A stretch of DNA of 40,863 nucleotides, taken from IMG/VR virus record IMGVR_UViG_3300021437_000041, positions 1 to 40,863 of that record, one strand, 5' to 3'. Both the position numbers and the translations under genes were made by a program. Source of the DNA: a virus. Positions 7,352-39,810 of this stretch are shown here, in pieces. Each line of letters begins with the position of its first letter. The stretch's first letter is position 1. The notes below the pieces were generated by a model, which saw nothing but the letters and a program-made list of their open reading frames with translations, ran no database searches and was not told the DNA's origin.

Positions 7352-7400
7352 TGACTTTGGGCTCCTTCGGTGGCCGCCGCGACGGCAACCTCATGCCCTA

Positions 7401-7410
7401 ATCAACTAAT
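7401..7410 (-). promoter_or_regulatory. Candidate operator, left copy (ATCAACTAAT)
   Basis: Inverse complement of 8088-8097. It lies upstream of the leftward operon, 50 bases before the 7007-7351 start. Two copies flanking a regulator gene suggest paired operators. Confidence 0.5.
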
Positions 7411-7450
7411 GCTTTGATTGCGAACGTGCAACCAAAAAAATGCTTTCAGT

Positions 7451-7494
7451 AAAAAATAAATAGGCCCTCCCTGTTTATTGGGGAAGGCCTATTT
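7451..7494 (-). terminator. Intrinsic terminator of the XRE regulator gene
   Basis: AATAGGCC (7459-7466) pairs with GGCCTATT (7486-7493), with further inner pairs of CCC to GGG. Read on the minus strand it ends in a long A/T run rich in T. It stops transcription from the 7551-8030 gene before the leftward operon. Confidence 0.8.
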
Positions 7495-7550
7495 GGTTTC
7501 GAACACCTGATCGCGAGCAAAAGCGCCGCGCTTGTAGCTAGTCGCTAGGG

Positions 7551-8030
7551 CTATCTGCTGTTGCGAGACGGCTTTTCCCGTGCGCGTGGCACTTCTCGCA
7601 CCTTCTGCGGAGTAGAGCGCATGTCGCGCAATTCTTGCTCCAGCTTAGCCATTCGCTCCTCGCTACGCCTCTCGGATTGCGACATGACCAGCTGTATTTC
7701 CTGGAGCTTTTGCTCTAACCGCTCGTTTTCGATCCGCCTCTTCTCGGCATCGAACAAATACAAACGGTAGGGACGCTCCCCCTTGTACCTATCTAACCAG
7801 TACCCACCATCCATGCCCAACGTGTCGCACAATTTTTGCGCGACATCGAGGGAAACCCCCGAAACTCCAGTGTCTTCTATGCGGGCGTACGCGTTGATGT
7901 ACGTCTGGCCCAGACCCGCCCTCCTCCCGATTTCCGCCTCCGATAAACCTTCACGCTTGAGCTGCCAAATCAACCAGTGGAGTCGCCACCCATGTATCGT
8001 TGGTGACGGCTTATGTTTTCTGCCGGCCAT
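7551..8030 (-). CDS. XRE-family transcription regulator with coiled-coil tail (repressor-like)
   Basis: 159 residues from the ATG at 8030. The HTH is at about 27-52 (S-E-A-E-I-G-R-R-A-G-L-G-Q-T-Y-I). A sensor-like middle follows, then a charged coiled coil at about 95-140. No peptidase domain of the LexA/CI type is visible. A perfect TATAAT (minus strand, 8088-8083) puts transcription start near 8076. In-frame starts at GTG 8072 and ATG 8084 exist, so the N-terminus is uncertain. Position opposite a second HTH gene and between two arms suggests the lysogeny-type repressor. Confidence 0.75.
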   Translation of the reverse strand: MAGRKHKPSPTIHGWRLHWLIWQLKREGLSEAEIGRRAGLGQTYINAYARIEDTGVSGVSLDVAQKLCDTLGMDGGYWLDRYKGERPYRLYLFDAEKRRIENERLEQKLQEIQLVMSQSERRSEERMAKLEQELRDMRSTPQKVREVPRAREKPSRNSR

Positions 8031-8082
8031 GCTCGCACTATCGCGCTTTTTTGGACCATTTTTTTGTTGCACCTCCGCGACC

Positions 8083-8088
8083 ATTATA
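8083..8088 (-). promoter_or_regulatory. -10 element TATAAT of the XRE regulator
   Basis: Perfect consensus hexamer on the minus strand, overlapping the right ATTAGTTGAT operator copy by one base. No convincing -35 is seen at 16-18 bp. Confidence 0.45.
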
Positions 8089-8097
8089 TTAGTTGAT
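8088..8097 (+). promoter_or_regulatory. Candidate operator, right copy (ATTAGTTGAT)
   Basis: Perfect inverse of 7401-7410. It lies between the divergent regulator genes and abuts the TATAAT of the leftward one, so a bound protein could block that promoter. Confidence 0.5.
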
Positions 8098-8104
8098 CGT
8101 GGAG

Positions 8105-8434
8105 ATGATGACGCAACAGGAGAGTGTCCGTGGTCGCGCGAGGTCTTGGCCTCGTGATCTTGATTATCAGGTGAGGCGGATTCTCGCCGCGGTAAAGCGC
8201 GGCAAGGATCTGCGTGAGGTAGCAGCGTCTCCGAAATACCAGCCGCGAGCGATTGCTGCTGCATACCTGGAGATCCATGACCTTTCGCAATCTGATCTGG
8301 CTCGCGAGCTGGATTGTTCGCAAGGTCACGTGTGGGGAGTGCTTCATGGTCGGTATGCGCCGACCGCTCATCGGTTACTTCGTGCATGGCGTGATGTAGT
8401 GGGTATCCCTACGACACGGTGGCTTGCGTGCTGA
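8105..8434 (+). CDS. Small HTH protein, Cro-like position
   Basis: 109 residues. A helix-turn-helix lies at about 62-85 (L-S-Q-S-D-L-A-R-E-L-D-C-S-Q-G-H-V-W-G-V-L-H-G). The N-terminal half is basic. In-frame starts at TTG 8093, GTG 8099, ATG 8105 and ATG 8108 are all close to the candidate promoter, and none has a separated Shine-Dalgarno. It diverges from the XRE gene and heads the rightward arm, the place of Cro in lambdoid phages; that role is inference. Confidence 0.65.
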   Translation: MMTQQESVRGRARSWPRDLDYQVRRILAAVKRGKDLREVAASPKYQPRAIAAAYLEIHDLSQSDLARELDCSQGHVWGVLHGRYAPTAHRLLRAWRDVVGIPTTRWLAC

Positions 8435-8450
8435 CCACACGCAAAGCAGT

Positions 8451-8468
8451 TCACCAAGAAATTGATTG
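8451..8468 (+). promoter_or_regulatory. 18-bp motif copy (TCACCA-AGAAAT-TGATTG)
   Basis: Matches the YYACYA-N6-TGRTAS-like family and shares AAATTGATTG with 33239-33256. It would serve the rightward replication operon. Confidence 0.5.
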
Positions 8469-8547
8469 CCGCTGCGCAGATTGGCGCGAGGGAAGGGTGC
8501 CGTTTAGTAAGCAGCGCCACGCCGGCCCTCGCGCGAGTCTGTGGAGT

Positions 8548-8682
8548 ATGAAATCGGCCGAGAAGCTGAACTCTGAAGTGCGGCGCTGCGAAGACTCCGC
8601 ACTCAGAGCTGAGTGTCTCGACCTATGGCCCGCAAGGCATTGCTGGCCTGAACGAGTTCTCAGCGCGCCGTTGCCATCATGA
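8548..8682 (+). CDS. Possible 44-residue peptide
   Basis: ATG at 8548 with GGAG one base upstream, too close for normal use. Composition is mixed with four Cys/Trp-rich positions and no recognisable fold. Listed because the interval otherwise has no gene; it may be untranslated. Confidence 0.2.
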   Translation: MKSAEKLNSEVRRCEDSALRAECLDLWPARHCWPERVLSAPLPS

Positions 8683-8762
8683 CGCGGTTGCTCAATTCCC
8701 CCTGAGCAGCCTGCAGCTGATGGCGGCGGCGTCTTTTTCTCTCGAACCAAAGAGGAGACGGT

Positions 8763-14614: not shown

Positions 14615-15943
14615 ATGGTGAAAGTAATTGTTGTAGGCGCTGGCATGGCCGGCATCGCTGCGGCTAAGCGTCTGAAGGAAAACGGGTTTGATGTGGTGGT
14701 GCTCGAAGCGCGCGACCGAATCGGTGGGCGCATGAACACTTCGACCAATCCCAGCGGAACCACGATCGATCTGGGCGCCGCGTGGATTCATGGCGACTGG
14801 GCCGAGTTCGAGGCGCTTGTCGCCGGCATGAACTTGGCCACGGTGAATACCGACTTCACGCTGATGACGTATTTCCGCGCGGCGGGCGTGGCGCCAGCTG
14901 TGCTCACGCCACAGATCTTCAATGACCTGGCATCACGGTTGGAGAATGCCGTGGTCTGGAATGCTCTCTTCAGCCCCTACGCAACAATGAAGAGCGTCAT
15001 CGACGCGGCGTACTTCACAGGCGGGTTTTATCCTTACCCGCAGGATCTCGTGAACTCGTTTACGACCGCCGCGATCGATACCGAGTACGCAAACAGCGCG
15101 TCCAAGATCCCCGCTGTCTCGGCTTCGGAGTTTGTTCCAAACTTGTCTGACACAACCGGATGGGCGTCATTCCTCAATTCTTCCGAGGGCGACAACACGG
15201 CATTCCCCGGAGGCTACAGTCAGGTCGCAGCGAACCTAGCCGTGGGCCTCGACATTCACCTGAGCGAGCCAATCAGCACGATCAACTACTCGGGCAGTCA
15301 AGTGACTGTAACCACGAGCGCTGCGACGTACACGGCCGACCACGTGATTGTGACCGTGCCGATTGGCGTGCTCAAGGCGCACACCATCACGTTTGTCCCG
15401 GCTTTGCCTACGGCGAAAGCAAACGCCATCACCCGACTGGGCAGCGGGCTCTTGAACAAGGTGTTCTTGGAGTTCCCCACGGGCACGCAGTTCTGGCCCG
15501 CAGACCGAGCGGTAATCGAGACCAACAGTCCCACGCGCGGCGCGTTCAGCACGTTCATCAATCTCCAGCCCATCACAGCCAAGCCGATACTTCAGGGCTG
15601 GCTCGTGGGCGACGCGGCGATTGAGCGCGAGGGTTGGACCGACGCGCAGATCATCGCTGAAGCCATGACGCGCCTTCGTGCTTGCGTGAGCTCGAGCGCG
15701 CCCGACCCAATCAGCGTGAAGATCACGCGCTGGGGCCAAGACCCGTACGCGCGCGGCTCGTACTCGACGTTCAACATGAGCACGTTGCTTGGTGATCGCG
15801 CTCTCCTGCGCGAACCCGTTGCGAGCAACAAGATCTTGTTTGCCGGAGAGGCGACTATGGACACTGGCTTTGCGCAGGTGCCCGGTGCCTACGCATCGGG
15901 CAAGCGCGAGGCTGACCGGCTGATCGCGACATACGCGCCATGA
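14615..15943 (+). CDS. FAD-dependent amine oxidase (flavin monoamine / polyamine oxidase family)
   Basis: 442 residues. The N-terminal dinucleotide fold is G-A-G-M-A-G-I-A-A-A at 8-17 and E-A-R-D-R-I-G-G-R at about 31-39. A W-I-H-G segment sits at the usual place. The C-terminal FAD-binding end is F-A-G-E-A-T-M-D-T-G-F-A-Q-V-P-G-A-Y-A-S-G. Such enzymes oxidise primary or secondary amines, often polyamines or amino acids. The typical substrate-side residues cannot be assigned. There is no signal peptide. A metabolic gene of this size is unusual among phage-like neighbours and may be recently acquired cargo. Confidence 0.85.
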   Translation: MVKVIVVGAGMAGIAAAKRLKENGFDVVVLEARDRIGGRMNTSTNPSGTTIDLGAAWIHGDWAEFEALVAGMNLATVNTDFTLMTYFRAAGVAPAVLTPQIFNDLASRLENAVVWNALFSPYATMKSVIDAAYFTGGFYPYPQDLVNSFTTAAIDTEYANSASKIPAVSASEFVPNLSDTTGWASFLNSSEGDNTAFPGGYSQVAANLAVGLDIHLSEPISTINYSGSQVTVTTSAATYTADHVIVTVPIGVLKAHTITFVPALPTAKANAITRLGSGLLNKVFLEFPTGTQFWPADRAVIETNSPTRGAFSTFINLQPITAKPILQGWLVGDAAIEREGWTDAQIIAEAMTRLRACVSSSAPDPISVKITRWGQDPYARGSYSTFNMSTLLGDRALLREPVASNKILFAGEATMDTGFAQVPGAYASGKREADRLIATYAP

Positions 15944-23724: not shown

Positions 23725-23937
23725 TCAGCGACCGGTGAGCGTGTGGCAGCGCTCGCTAGCGATGCGTAGGTTCACGATGTCTGTGCTGGGCAGATACAGG
23801 ACGTAGGTGCGGCAGCCAACACAGCTGCAGCTGCTGGCGTACGAGCGCACAGTGGCAGTGCGCAGCATGTGTTGTGCTTGTCCTCGCGACAGCTTGCGCG
23901 GCGCGTCCAAGTGCGAGGTGTAGAGCAGATAGGCCAT
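23725..23937 (-). CDS. Promoter-proximal small protein of leftward unit
   Basis: 70 residues. C-S-C-V-G-C in the middle and a basic helical start. First gene after the 23961-23978 motif. Start chosen at ATG 23937 after the leader. Unrecognised. Confidence 0.6.
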   Translation of the reverse strand: MAYLLYTSHLDAPRKLSRGQAQHMLRTATVRSYASSCSCVGCRTYVLYLPSTDIVNLRIASERCHTLTGR

Positions 23938-24157: not shown

Positions 24158-24568
24158 GTGCAGAAGAGTGGTGATGAGCTGGTAGGCGCAGACCCCGCGG
24201 CTAAGTGTGAAGGTGGTGCAACACTGAACGAAGCGCTGCTCAGCGGTGAGGACCTGGTTAGCCCGAAAGTGAAGGCAGAACGCGCTATTGCGGCTCAGCT
24301 CGACGTCGCGGCTAAGACTATGGCGACGCTGTTAGCGATGGATCCGGTTGATAAGTTCAGCGCGGCTGATGGTGGCGAACCGAACATCATCGAGCGGCCG
24401 AATGCAGCGATGGCTCAGCTGCAATGGAAGATCGCGCAATACATTCTTGACGCAGCGATGGAACGACTGCCGAGCGCGAACAACGTGGCGAAGTCGATCG
24501 TGGTCAAGGCTATCGATGCCAAGTCGCTGCAAGCCGAGCTAGCCAAGCGCCTCAAGAAAGCGGCGTGA
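24158..24568 (+). CDS. Hypothetical 136-residue protein near parS
   Basis: GTG start at 24158; GTGAGG upstream. Ala/Leu-rich helical protein with a central D-P-V-D-K-F-S-A-A-D-G-G-E loop and a basic C-terminus (K-R-L-K-K-A-A). TATACT (24119-24124) could be its -10. It is neither ParA- nor ParB-like. Unrecognised. Confidence 0.6.
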   Translation: MQKSGDELVGADPAAKCEGGATLNEALLSGEDLVSPKVKAERAIAAQLDVAAKTMATLLAMDPVDKFSAADGGEPNIIERPNAAMAQLQWKIAQYILDAAMERLPSANNVAKSIVVKAIDAKSLQAELAKRLKKAA

Positions 24569-24663
24569 TGCGACGATCGTCTGCATTGTTTCCAATGTTT
24601 CCAACGCACGTGCGACACGTAGAACGTTGAGCGCAAACGCACGTGAGACACTAGGGCACACGC

Positions 24664-24681
24664 CTACCAAAGGTATGCTGG
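24664..24681 (+). promoter_or_regulatory. 18-bp motif copy overlapping a palindrome
   Basis: CTACCA-AAGGTA-TGCTGG. It overlaps the perfect palindrome GGTATGC-TG-GCATACC (24672-24687). Confidence 0.5.
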
Positions 24682-24694
24682 CATACCAATGTAG

Positions 24695-24710
24695 TGTTTC
24701 ACGTGAAACG
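24695..24710. promoter_or_regulatory. parS: parS-like centromere site
   Basis: TGTTTCACGTGAAACG matches the bacterial consensus parS (TGTTTCACGTGAAACA) at 15 of 16 positions and contains its perfect 14-bp palindrome. parS is bound by ParB-CTP clamps for segregation. No parA or parB gene is in this window, so the site may recruit a ParB encoded elsewhere on the element or by the host. Confidence 0.8.
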
Positions 24711-24730
24711 CTCGCGACCGAACAGCACAA

Positions 24731-24765
24731 CGCCCAGGCCTACACCATGTAGACCTGGGCGTTTC
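24731..24765 (+). terminator. Intrinsic terminator hairpin
   Basis: CGCCCAGG-C-CTAC pairs with GTAG-A-CCTGGGCG around ACCAT, followed by TTTC. It lies just right of parS and is nearly symmetric, so may act both ways. Confidence 0.65.
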
Positions 24766-25015
24766 ATCACATGAACATCAAAGCGCGACCGAGGCGTAGC
24801 ACGCCTGCCTACCAAAGCAACAGTTACCCCGCCGCCCACCACCGGCCCCACCCCCGTTGGTTTCCCGAGGCCTTTTTGCAGAGTGATAGGCCCACCCTGT
24901 ATCTCAGATTTCTACCATTCTGTTTCTGGCTCACCCTGTACGTCTGCCTAACAGTTAGACCCCCCGATGGGTTTTGACCCCCCACCGTCTGAAAACGTCG
25001 GGTCCCATCCACCTC

Positions 25016-25033
25016 CTACTAAAGTTATGCTAG
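25016..25033 (+). promoter_or_regulatory. 18-bp motif copy (CTACTA-AAGTTA-TGCTAG)
   Basis: TATGCT (25026-25031) would act as -10, placing the transcript start about six bases before the ATG at 25043. Confidence 0.55.
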
Positions 25034-25042
25034 GACCCGCAC

Positions 25043-25171
25043 ATGACCACCGAGGACGAAAAACGCCGGCAGGAGCTCTGGACGGAGTTCAGCAAGACAC
25101 GCGGCGGTGGCAAACCCTCGCCTCGGCCGGCGCCAGCAACCGAGGCACCGAAGAAGCCACAGCAGCGCTGA
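25043..25171 (+). CDS. 42-residue charged peptide, near-leaderless
   Basis: Begins M-T-T-E-D-E-K-R-R-Q-E-L-W and ends in a Pro/Ala/Lys/Gln-rich tail. No Shine-Dalgarno; the ATG is only about ten bases after the 18-bp motif. Supported by position and codon pattern only. Confidence 0.4.
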   Translation: MTTEDEKRRQELWTEFSKTRGGGKPSPRPAPATEAPKKPQQR

Positions 25172-25185
25172 GACCCTCTCGCTCT

Positions 25186-25201
25186 TGTTTCACGTGGCGG
25201 A
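25186..25201 (+). promoter_or_regulatory. Degenerate parS-like half site
   Basis: TGTTTCACGTG matches the left 11 bases of parS; the right end is lost. Possibly a weak second ParB site or a relic. Confidence 0.3.
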
Positions 25202-25256
25202 GGAGCGTCTAGCGCAGGCGCAGCGAAGCAAGCCGAGCGGAGACGCGACGACCATT

Positions 25257-25569
25257 CCTGAAGCGTCTTCCTAACGCTGGCAGGTTCGTCGCTGGGTGAG
25301 CTGCTCTCGCAGCATCCATCACGCTCTACGCCTTCCGGTACCACTCGCCTGGGTTCGCAGCCCTGACCCTCATACCTTCCTGGCTCTCTCGCCAGTACCT
25401 GTCGGGGTTTCCATCTGCGCCGGGTATTCACCGCACTATCTGTAGTGCGTGGTGGTCGCCGTCTTCCACCTAGAGCTTGGCTGCCTCTCCTACGGTCTCT
25501 CGTAGCCAGAATGGGCGAACTGGCAGCAGCCTTGACAGCCACAGGGACCTGAAATGCTCCCTGGGTCCC
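25257..25569 (-). ncRNA. Structured non-coding RNA candidate (about 313 nt)
   Basis: On the minus strand at least eight helices form in order: GGGACC/GGTCCC (25544-25569); a three-way junction closed by GGCTGC/GCAGCC (25479-25484 with 25526-25531) enclosing hairpins 25505-25524 and 25490-25505; GGTGG/CCACC (25451-25470); GCACTA-CAGA-TAGTGC (25433-25448); CTGGC-GAGAGA-GCCAG (25380-25395); GCTGC-GAGA-GCAGC (25300-25313), with a GNRA loop; and AGCGT/ACGCT inside CCTG/CAGG (25257-25284). Purine-rich GAGA-type loops appear only on this strand, which fixes orientation. The region lacks a credible ORF. I cannot assign a known class; a group II intron or HEARO-like RNA was considered without proof. 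Confidence 0.6.
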
Positions 25570-25578
25570 CGTATCCTA

Positions 25579-25596
25579 CCACCATTTTTATGCTTG
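25579..25596 (+). promoter_or_regulatory. 18-bp motif copy (CCACCA-TTTTTA-TGCTTG)
   Basis: First of two tandem copies upstream of the long rightward operon. On the minus strand its A/T core could also act as the -10 of the structured RNA. Confidence 0.5.
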
Positions 25597-25600
25597 TGTT

Positions 25601-25618
25601 CTACTAAAAGTTTGATAC
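25601..25618 (+). promoter_or_regulatory. 18-bp motif copy (CTACTA-AAAGTT-TGATAC)
   Basis: Ten bases before the ATG at 25629. A -10 at TTTGAT or TTGATA would give a leader of about five bases. Confidence 0.6.
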
Positions 25619-25628
25619 ACCATTCCCC

Positions 25629-25883
25629 ATGAAGCCCGAGGTCTGGACCAAACACACAGAGCGCTTCACTCGCGACAGAGACGAGGAGACGCCTCGCGCG
25701 AAGCTCATTCCCGAGCCCGAAAAACCTGCACGCCGACTCGGTCCACCGAAGAAGCGTACGCGCCCACGCAACGCCCCTGTCGCCTACCACCTTCCTCGCT
25801 GTGCTGAGTGCAAAGGGCAATCCAAGCACAAGCCAGGCTGCAGCCTCACTGAGCTCATGAAGCTCGGAAAGCAACGCGCATGA
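25629..25883 (+). CDS. First gene of the long rightward operon, basic zinc-knuckle-like protein
   Basis: 84 residues, Arg/Lys/Pro-rich. C-A-E-C near residue 58 and a third Cys at 70 form a likely metal site. It has no clear Shine-Dalgarno and sits directly behind two motif copies. Coupled to the next gene by ATGA. Unrecognised. Confidence 0.6.
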   Translation: MKPEVWTKHTERFTRDRDEETPRAKLIPEPEKPARRLGPPKKRTRPRNAPVAYHLPRCAECKGQSKHKPGCSLTELMKLGKQRA

Positions 25884-26140
25884 CCACCACGTATTTCTGG
25901 AAGCTCGAGGTTTCGAGCGACGATTTCCTGATCACGGTCCGCGAGTGCACGCCCAATGGTGAGCACTGCTGGCGCTACGCCATTCCCGCAGTGGGCACCG
26001 ATCTTCCTGCGTTCATCGACAAGGTTGTGCAGCGACATCCTGCCGTCACTGACGCGCTGCAGGCCGCGCTCAAGGACTTCGTGTCCACCAATGAGATCCG
26101 CCACATCTCCGGCGACTTCTTCGTCAAGGACGAGCCGTGA
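25880..26140 (+). CDS. Hypothetical protein, mixed alpha/beta
   Basis: 86 residues. Beta-strands at the start (Y-F-W-K-L-E-V-S) and a helical second half. ATGA coupling at the start, GTGA at the end. Unrecognised. Confidence 0.6.
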   Translation: MTTTYFWKLEVSSDDFLITVRECTPNGEHCWRYAIPAVGTDLPAFIDKVVQRHPAVTDALQAALKDFVSTNEIRHISGDFFVKDEP

Positions 26141-33413: not shown

Positions 33414-33980
33414 ATGGATTTTCAGATCGTAGAAAAGGGCGCGACACTCGAGATCAAGGATAAGGCTGGCAAGGCGCTGACCAACGTCTATCTCGGCGCT
33501 GGTTGGGACTTCACGGGCAAGCCGGTGGACCTGGATCTGGTTGCCGCGTGCCTCGACGGCAACGGCAAGCTCACCGCGCAGACGCGTCTGGTGTACTTCG
33601 GCGACAAGACCGAGCCGGGCGTGCAGCTGAGCGAGGACAACCGCACTGGCGAAGGGGATGGAGACGACGAGAGCATCGTGTTCACGCTCTCCGAGGTCGA
33701 AGCCGATGTGAAGAAGATCGCGTTTGGCATCGCTGCTTACGCGGGTGCAGACCTGAAGAGCGCGACGAACGTGCATTTCCGCGTTTGCGACGGCAAAGAC
33801 GGTAGCGGCCCGCAGGTGTTGGAGGTTCGTGTTGCTGACGCAGAGTCGGGGCAGACTGTTTTGCACGCTGGAAACCTCGTTCGCGGCGAAGACGGCTGGA
33901 AGATCGAGAACGTCAGTGCCTTTTACTCGAAGGGCAACGGCGCCGACGCCATCCGCGGCTTTGCCGGGCTTTTCAGCTGA
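33414..33980 (+). CDS. terD: TerD-domain protein
   Basis: 188 residues covering one complete TerD domain. Y-L-G-A-G-W-D, D-L-D-L-V-A-A-C-L-D, V-Y-F-G-D-K-T and Q-L-S-E-D-N-R-T-G-E-G-D-G-D-D-E-S-I are the Ca-binding signature. TerD proteins act in tellurite and phage-stress pathways, often with TerC. AAAGGAA precedes the ATG. It is followed at once by a small gene and a TerC-like gene, a minimal ter-like module. Confidence 0.9.
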   Translation: MDFQIVEKGATLEIKDKAGKALTNVYLGAGWDFTGKPVDLDLVAACLDGNGKLTAQTRLVYFGDKTEPGVQLSEDNRTGEGDGDDESIVFTLSEVEADVKKIAFGIAAYAGADLKSATNVHFRVCDGKDGSGPQVLEVRVADAESGQTVLHAGNLVRGEDGWKIENVSAFYSKGNGADAIRGFAGLFS

Positions 33981-33981
33981 C

Positions 33982-34227
33982 ATGGCCAAGTACCAAAAAA
34001 AGCTGCTCACCGAAGCGCATCAGCTCTCGGATGAAGACTATCCAACCTGGCTTACGCTGTTGTTTGCGGACGGCCGAGTGAAGCTCGAAAACGGACAGTA
34101 CGTCGTTGGGACGCGTGAGGGCCTCAAGACCACGAGCCTCGAAGACTGGATCGCCATTGACAGCAACGGCGACCCCTATCCGATCGCCGCGGATGTGTTT
34201 GCGGCGACGTACAAACCCGCAGAGTAA
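33982..34227 (+). CDS. Small protein in the ter-like module
   Basis: 81 residues. W-L-T-L-L-F-A-D-G-R-V-K-L-E-N-G-Q-Y-V-V resembles a beta-hairpin; acidic helix before. Starts immediately after terD stop. Unrecognised; linked to TerD/TerC by position. Confidence 0.6.
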   Translation: MAKYQKKLLTEAHQLSDEDYPTWLTLLFADGRVKLENGQYVVGTREGLKTTSLEDWIAIDSNGDPYPIAADVFAATYKPAE

Positions 34228-34230
34228 ATC

Positions 34231-34782
34231 ATGAACGAGCTATTCGCCCTGATCGCTGTCATTTTGGTCGACGTTGCCCTCAGTTTGGACAACGCCGTAA
34301 TGATCTCTGTCGTTGCGGAGAGTGTTCCCGAGGAACAGCGGTCACGGGCGAAGCTTTACGGCATCGGCGGCGCCGTCGTGGCGCGCCTGCTGTTTGCGCT
34401 CGTAGCTTCGTGGCTTCTGAAGTTCACGCTCTTCACGCTCGCGGGCGGTGCTTACCTCGTGAAGGTCGCGTGGGACATGCGTCACCGCAATGAGCCCAAG
34501 TCCGATGGGGCTCCATCCAGCCTGTTCGGTCCCGTAGTTCGTATTATGTTGGCAGATGTAGTGATGTCCCTCGATAACGTGCTCGCCGTGGCGCACAACG
34601 CGCGCGAGCACACCGCGATCATGCTGTTCGGACTTGTTTTGTCGATCACGCTGATGTTCTTCGCGACGAAGCTCATCTCGCTCATGATCGAGCGCGAGCC
34701 ACGTCTCTATTATTTGGCCGTGGGCATCGTCGCGCTAACGGGCGTGCACATGGTTTGGCACGGAGCCTTTACCCTTGTTTAG
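34231..34782 (+). CDS. TerC/YjbE-family integral membrane protein
   Basis: 183 residues with about six or seven membrane helices. V-D-V-A-L-S-L-D-N-A-V near residue 15 and A-D-V-V-M-S-L-D-N-V-L-A-V-A near 110 are the paired D-N motifs of the TerC/YjbE family, linked to metal (Mn) export and tellurite stress. Shorter than TerC, matching YjbE-type length. Works at the cytoplasmic membrane, probably with the neighbouring TerD protein. Confidence 0.85.
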   Translation: MNELFALIAVILVDVALSLDNAVMISVVAESVPEEQRSRAKLYGIGGAVVARLLFALVASWLLKFTLFTLAGGAYLVKVAWDMRHRNEPKSDGAPSSLFGPVVRIMLADVVMSLDNVLAVAHNAREHTAIMLFGLVLSITLMFFATKLISLMIEREPRLYYLAVGIVALTGVHMVWHGAFTLV

Positions 34783-35987: not shown

Positions 35988-37154
35988 GTGTCCATTTCGC
36001 AGATCCAAGGTAAGCAGGCGCCCATTCACCTCTGGGCAAACGTTCATGAGGTGGAGAGCCAAGCGCTCGATCAGCTGAAGAACATCGCGGCGCTGCCGTG
36101 GGTGTTCAAGCACGTGGCCGCGATGCCTGACGTGCACTACGGCATCGGCGCGACCGTGGGCTCGGTGATTGCGCTGAAGGGCGCTGTCGCCCCAGCCGCA
36201 GTTGGGGTCGATTTGGGCTGCGGCATGGCTGCGGTGAAGACGACGCTGCGCGCGAACGACTTGCCCGACTCGCTGGGAGCATTGCGCAGCCGGATTGAGG
36301 CTGCCGTTCCCGTGGGCTTTGCGGCCCACGGCGAGGTTTCCCAGCGCGTCGACCGGCATCCCCTGTGGAAGACCTTCGCCGAGCTGCACGATGGCGTGCA
36401 AGACAACGTCGCCCGCGCGCGCCAGCAGATGGGCACGCTTGGTGGCGGCAATCACTTCATCGAGGTCTGCCTGGACGGCGAGCAGAACATCTGGGTGATG
36501 CTGCACTCCGGCTCGCGCAACATCGGCAAGGTGCTGGCCGATATCCACATCAGCGCTGCCAAGAAGCTCGCGCACAACCAGGCTTTGCCCGACAAAGACC
36601 TCGCGGTATTCTTGGCCGGTACGCCCGAGATGCAGGCGTACCGACGAGATCTCTCGTGGGCGCAGGACTACGCGCGTGCGAACCGCGAGACGATGCTCGT
36701 GCTCGTCTCGGACGTGCTCGTGAGCATGTTCCCCCACGTCGAGTTCGGGCCGCCCGTGGTTTGCCACCACAACTACCTCTCTGAGGAGAACCACTTCGGC
36801 GAGGACGTGTTCGTGACACGCAAGGGCGCGATCAGCGCGCGCCTCGGACAGCTCGGCATCATCCCGGGGAGCATGGGTACGCGTTCCTACATCGTACGGG
36901 GCAAGGGCAACCCGGAGTCGTTCGAGTCGGCATCGCACGGCGCAGGCCGGCGCATGTCGCGCGGTCAGGCAAAGCGCACGTTCACGCTCGAGGACTTGGC
37001 CGCGCAGACCGCTGGCGTCGAGTGCCGCAAGGATGCGGGCGTGCTCGATGAGATCCCCGGCGCGTACAAAGAAATTGAGACCGTGATGCGGCAGCAGGCA
37101 GATCTTGTGGAGATCGTCGCCGAGCTGCAGCAGATCTTATGCGTGAAAGGCTAG
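35988..37154 (+). CDS. rtcB: RtcB-family RNA ligase
   Basis: 388 residues. Motifs in order: M-P-D-V-H (46-50), V-G-V-D-L-G-C-G-M (about 72-80, with the metal-binding Cys), L-G-G-G-N-H-F-I-E, L-H-S-G-S-R-N-I-G, C-H-H-N-Y and A-S-H-G-A-G-R-R-M-S-R, whose His is the guanylated residue. RtcB joins 2',3'-cyclic-phosphate or 3'-phosphate ends to 5'-OH RNA ends using GTP and Mn, repairing cleaved tRNA or rRNA. Length is close to RtcB2-type proteins. Start is GTG. In a phage-like element it may counter host tRNA-cutting defences (inference). Confidence 0.93.
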   Translation: MSISQIQGKQAPIHLWANVHEVESQALDQLKNIAALPWVFKHVAAMPDVHYGIGATVGSVIALKGAVAPAAVGVDLGCGMAAVKTTLRANDLPDSLGALRSRIEAAVPVGFAAHGEVSQRVDRHPLWKTFAELHDGVQDNVARARQQMGTLGGGNHFIEVCLDGEQNIWVMLHSGSRNIGKVLADIHISAAKKLAHNQALPDKDLAVFLAGTPEMQAYRRDLSWAQDYARANRETMLVLVSDVLVSMFPHVEFGPPVVCHHNYLSEENHFGEDVFVTRKGAISARLGQLGIIPGSMGTRSYIVRGKGNPESFESASHGAGRRMSRGQAKRTFTLEDLAAQTAGVECRKDAGVLDEIPGAYKEIETVMRQQADLVEIVAELQQILCVKG

Positions 37155-39792: not shown

Positions 39793-39810
39793 CTACCAAT
39801 AGTTTGGTAA
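39793..39810. promoter_or_regulatory. 18-bp motif copy (CTACCA-ATAGTT-TGGTAA)
   Basis: Nearly perfect palindrome between two leftward genes, upstream of the 39361-39771 gene. Confidence 0.55.

Follow-up and report, generated by a model that had tools for sequence, protein, structure and literature searches.

A candidate 334-nt structured non-coding RNA in the regulatory hub of a linear phage

We propose that this phage encodes a stand-alone non-coding RNA of about 334 nt, which would run leftward on the minus strand from position 25571 to 25238, out of a divergent control region that also starts the operon at 25629. We put the probability of this reading at roughly 45%. It draws on a predicted fold closed end to end, on the strand composition of the element, and on a copy of a genome-wide motif that faces it at a distance of 8 nt (Table 1). 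Few parts of phage genomes are as poorly understood as structured RNAs whose function is not known. If it is transcribed, the element would be an orphan RNA connected to a phage-wide control network by the site upstream of it, and the time of its production could be predicted from that network. If it is not, the region illustrates how readily GC-rich spacers in phages can mimic ornate RNAs.

Genomic setting and coding potential

The window, that is, the whole stretch of DNA analyzed, is an IMG/VR record of a linear virus (40,863 bp, 61% GC). Its gene content includes an integrase, a Mu Gam-like protein, a methyltransferase, a DnaB-like helicase, an amine oxidase, a DHH phosphoesterase, TerC and TerD, and RtcB. 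The phrog_1366 ATPase shows 58% identity to Myxococcus phage Mx8. No close relative of the whole phage turned up in the collections searched, each gene matching different, distant phages. In two relatives of this ATPase (L075 and L076), each matched frame carries two TAG codons, which may indicate that those phages recode TAG. The amine oxidase, at 14615-15943, is a flavin amine oxidase family protein (Pfam Amino_oxidase, E 1e-72). The TerD and TerC proteins (33414-34782 and 35988-37154) are encoded near the RtcB RNA ligase, downstream of the DHH phosphoesterase, and another viral record (L149) also combines TerD (63%) with RtcB (54%).

The hub that houses the element is flanked by two operons, one running leftward from a first gene that starts at 23937 and the other running rightward from 25629. 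We scored all six frames with a codon model that had been trained on genes of this phage. Throughout the gap 25172-25628, the scores are negative in nearly all windows of all frames, and a 170-amino-acid minus-strand frame lying over the element has no family match; a protein-coding reading was dropped on these two grounds. The preliminary description had seen no credible gene here, and the codon scores, non-coding in six frames across this 457-nt gap, bear it out. No protein frame thus crosses the element, as expected of a stand-alone phage RNA.

Table 1. Coordinates of the predicted RNA element, its helices, and the copies of the 18-bp motif
Feature	Position	Strand	Remarks
Non-coding gap housing the element	25172-25628	.	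457 nt; codon-model gene calls
Predicted structured non-coding RNA element	25238..25571	-	334 nt, bounded by closing helix; MFE -139.2 kcal/mol, z -2.79; non-coding in all frames
P1 closing helix, 5' strand	25565..25571	-	pairs with 25238-25244; MFE and centroid of 25571-25238
P1 closing helix, 3' strand	25238..25244	-	MFE and centroid of 25571-25238
P2 hairpin CAGGGA/UCCCUG	25542..25563	-	predicted fold
P3 domain, internal pairing ambiguous	25478..25541	-	predicted fold
P4 domain, closed by GCUCUA/UAGAGC	25323..25476	-	154 nt; predicted fold
P5 hairpin with GAGA tetraloop (GNRA)	25296..25322	-	predicted fold
P6 hairpin GCGACGA/UCGUCGC, CCUG/CAGG, AGCGUU/GACGCU	25245..25292	-	loop with AGGA; predicted fold
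Control-site copy CAAGCATAAAAATGGTGG facing the RNA	25579..25596	-	8 nt between site end and P1
Control-site copy CTACTAAAAGTTTGATAC facing the rightward operon	25601..25618	+	10 nt before ATG at 25629
18-bp motif site starts	7403, 7429, 8078, 13811, 13884, 21790, 23961, 24664, 25016
18-bp motif site starts, continued	25579, 25601, 33239, 33396, 35866, 38073, 39793, 40113

Predicted fold and its statistical standing

A structured RNA had been placed at 25257-25569 (313 nt). The helices described there are confirmed, and so is the non-coding character of the region, but those boundaries were slightly off. Folding longer stretches exposed two helices that reach beyond them, each of 7 bp: 25292-25286/25251-25245, the outer helix of P6, which completes the last hairpin and which the earlier boundary had missed, and 25571-25565/25244-25238 (P1), which closes the whole element. 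Redrawn as 25571-25238 on the minus strand, the element spans 334 nt, and its unconstrained minimum-energy fold includes both added helices. In this predicted fold, six helices, one of which joins the two ends of the element and closes it, come together in a compact six-way junction that leaves five bases unpaired, the helices abutting one another. The 5' strand of P1 competes with a 5' hairpin (GGGGACC/GGUCCCU). P3 holds a stable hairpin, CUACG-AGAGAC-CGUAG, at 25505-25490, and the interior of P4 is predicted to contain a three-way junction together with hairpins 25449-25432 and 25395-25380. Both motifs singled out at the outset are thus found again: the three-way junction in the predicted fold, and the GNRA (GAGA) tetraloop in GCUGC[GAGA]GCAGC at 25313-25300.

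The earlier reading of at least eight perfect or near-perfect helices agrees with our count of eight perfect hairpins (stems of at least 5 bp, loops of 3 to 12 nt) in 25257-25569, against a mean of 2.45 (sd 1.5) in dinucleotide shuffles, of which 1 in 500 reached eight. Eight hairpins per 313 nt are nonetheless not rare in this genome (mean 4.1), and several clusters as dense occur elsewhere. Within the earlier bounds, the fold has no significant advantage in stability over shuffles (z -1.47 on the minus strand, -1.58 on the plus strand). With the closing helix, the 334-nt element reaches -139.2 kcal/mol and z -2.79, a stability matched by 0 of 100 shuffles; an independent run of the full-length element gave a z of about -2.6, with 6 of 600 shuffles equally stable. 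An equally compact junction with a closing stem of at least 5 bp appears in 8 of 600 shuffles (about 1.3%) and 7 of 406 genome windows (1.7%). P4 alone has a z of -3.10 on the minus strand (1 of 200 shuffles; -2.72 in an independent run). Taken together, the predicted structure stands above chance at about the 1% level, which is suggestive and short of proof because 16 of 227 background windows of 334 nt (7%) also have z <= -2.79, because a 400-nt window over the element has a z of only -0.65, and because the 334-nt boundaries were picked after the closing helix P1 had been seen.

The same figures feed the reading that the hub contains no functional RNA at all, only a GC-rich regulatory spacer between divergent units whose helices reflect the ordinary foldability of a 61% GC genome. 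The background windows, the equally dense hairpin clusters elsewhere, the weak 400-nt window and the failure to find conservation of any kind are all what such a spacer would give. Against it, 457 nt is long for a spacer in a gene-dense phage, the compact junction and the hairpin count are each met in about 1% of shuffles or fewer, and the region that a control site faces is devoid of protein genes. We consider this explanation unlikely, though it carries real weight.

The most strongly folded stretches of the genome lie elsewhere, at 7385-8700, where z falls to -9 on the minus strand. This is a gene-poor region with three copies of the 18-bp motif, and it may harbor other non-coding RNAs or terminators.

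Strand, control sites, and a possible mechanism

Folding energy picks no strand, the plus and minus strands of the element scoring almost alike. Composition is more informative. The minus strand of the element has 24% A and 35% G versus 14% T, the AT skew of the plus strand over 25250-25474 runs from -0.28 to -0.39, and gene sense strands in this phage are A-rich; composition thus favors the minus strand as the RNA strand. Purine-rich loops had been reported on the minus strand only, and they are indeed found there, although A-rich loops are no more frequent than the composition of that strand would give. The minus orientation proposed earlier accordingly stands on composition and on the control site facing the element at 25596-25579, and draws nothing from folding energy.

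The near equality of the strands also leaves room for a plus-strand structure, an intercistronic leader (attenuator or ligand-sensing) between the small gene 25043-25171 and the operon at 25629. On that strand, the P4 region has a z of -3.57 (-3.63 in an independent run) and the 334 nt a z of -2.73, so the fold is equally stable, and a plus transcript crossing the region could begin from the control site at 25016. However, the site at 25601 sits 10 nt before the operon ATG, so a long leader is not needed; the loops are pyrimidine-rich on the plus strand; no compact closed junction was found on that strand; and the whole plus gap has a z of -1.93. A leader of this kind strikes us as distinctly improbable.

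The two copies of an 18-bp motif that had been noticed at 25579-25618 are real members of a genome-wide set (25579-25596 and 25601-25618). A position weight matrix (PWM) built from the best copies of this quasi-palindromic motif, about CTACCAAAAGWATGATAG, finds 20 sites at a score of >=11.5 versus 0.7 per shuffled genome. The sites are mostly intergenic, and many lie 0 to 23 nt before a same-strand start codon: on the plus strand, 25016 precedes the gene at 25043, 25601 that at 25629, and 33396 that at 33414, while the minus-strand sites 35866, 38073, 40113, and 23961 precede genes of their own. One copy, at 39794-39809, forms a perfect palindrome (TACCAA-N4-TTGGTA), pointing to a dimeric regulator. 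From its distribution, the motif looks like a phage-wide operator or promoter network.

Scored with a PWM from which it had been excluded, the site 25596-25579 reaches 15.8 on the minus strand (rank 20 among all positions), higher than anything in the reversed-sequence control, which peaks at 14.5. In the plus orientation, the site scores 12.6. Since the motif is nearly palindromic, this orientation is weak evidence for the RNA strand. No protein gene follows the site for 1641 nt, and a site facing the RNA 8 nt before P1, with no protein gene behind it over that distance, is what a separately started leftward RNA would need. The suggestion that the element shares a divergent promoter with the rightward operon fits the arrangement, the two copies pointing apart with one at each start. 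No sigma-70 promoter was found for the element, and no terminator was found downstream of it on the RNA strand; the lack of a terminator is the main structural weakness of the non-coding RNA reading. Downstream of another plus-strand copy of the motif, at 24664, the next 361 nt contain no protein gene but include a very stable hairpin at 24729-24763, and 24684-24770 folds with a z of -5.39. The stretch 24664-24770 may be a second, short non-coding RNA, or else a terminator working in both directions.

Inverted repeats could also act at the DNA level, as protein-binding sites or as replication or partition sites near a parS-like palindrome. Such repeats are strand-symmetric, in keeping with the folding of both strands, and an exact TTTCACGTGAAA, the inner part of parS, occurs at 24697-24708 in the same hub. 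Yet there is no iterated site inside 25238-25571, the hairpins are unlike each other in sequence, and no GC-skew minimum marks the hub, all of which makes a DNA element very unlikely. The parS-like site itself, AGTGTTTCACGTGAAACGCT at 24693-24712, contains the exact TTTCACGTGAAA core and is one mismatch away from the common parS sequence, TGTTTCACGTGAAACA. It is a hint of a plasmid-like or chromosome-partition-linked phage.

Returning to the stand-alone RNA, we envisage that it would be transcribed leftward from the divergent control region, from which the rightward operon at 25629 also starts. The control site 25596-25579 would set the RNA start, and the same site would place the RNA under a regulator common to other transcription units of the phage. 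The transcript would fold into a closed six-helix particle. More speculatively, this particle might act in trans as a folded body and not by pairing with a single mRNA. Its purine loops recur (GGAAG at four places, GAGAG-type loops at several) and might be displayed to a protein of the phage or of the host; it is these GGAAG and GAGAG loops that suggest protein binding.

Homology searches and comparison with known systems

That the element could not be placed in a known RNA class was borne out. The covariance models of Rfam 15, among them ROOL, GOLLD, OLE, HEARO, RNase P, tmRNA, 6S, and CsrB, gave no match at the gathering score over the whole window, and a permissive Rfam search of 24550-26000 gave none inside the element. 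ARAGORN found no tRNA or tmRNA in the window. A group I or II intron, RNase P, tmRNA, a Y RNA, and an IscB/TnpB guide RNA were dropped for want of an Rfam match, and a retron was dropped since reverse transcriptase is absent among the family matches. The blastn search of phages and plasmids returned a single 29-nt chance match, inside a capsid gene. Pattern scans of viral DNA yielded nothing with a 19-mer and chance matches only with a 16-mer and a 15-mer (each checked singly) and with a 14-mer (judged by identity, nhmmer, and a covariance model). For the DHH phosphoesterase, ATPase, RtcB, and TerD, relatives were collected and most of the whole records carrying them were searched; these gave only short chance matches to the element, the best being 31 nt at 84%, within a coding frame. 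Genome collection scans with two proteins of the window gave no match, and a covariance model of the 154-nt P4 run over 78 viral records found only P4 itself. The element has no recognizable relative in the Rfam, phage, plasmid, or viral records searched. More tentatively than for the stand-alone RNA as such, we suggest a new class of phage structured RNA of about 334 nt, a six-way junction whose two ends pair to close it. It would be transcribed separately, under a phage regulator that acts across the genome, and would work as a folded particle on a protein of the phage or of its host.

Lambda OOP, P1 c4, and the P4 CI RNA are short antisense RNAs of phage immunity regions, under about 100 nt, that work by base-pairing. 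The predicted transcript resembles them as a non-coding RNA that lies within a regulatory hub and runs against the neighboring operon, but it is larger and, in prediction, folded; the only antisense overlap would be with gene 25043-25171 further downstream, should transcription continue that far. CsrB and RsmZ are protein-sponge RNAs with several hairpins bearing GGA-containing loops. The element likewise has hairpins with such loops (AGGA in that of P6), although its GGA count (9) is near the composition expectation, its architecture is unlike theirs, and it has no Rfam match.

The c1 operators of P1 form a distributed operator system. So do the stoperators of mycobacteriophages (PMC9283540). 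As in those systems, the sites described here are repeated, mostly intergenic, and linked to gene starts, and they include one upstream of the RNA; the 18-bp motif differs in sequence and is nearly palindromic, and its operator role here is putative. GOLLD and ROOL are large, ornate phage RNAs (PMC12286853). They often, though not universally, lie near phage tRNA islands, whereas the window has no tRNA; and many GOLLD RNAs exceed 800 nt, whereas the element is 334 nt long and has no Rfam match. What the element, so far predicted only, would share with them is the character of a stand-alone, multi-helix, phage-encoded RNA with no obvious protein partner.
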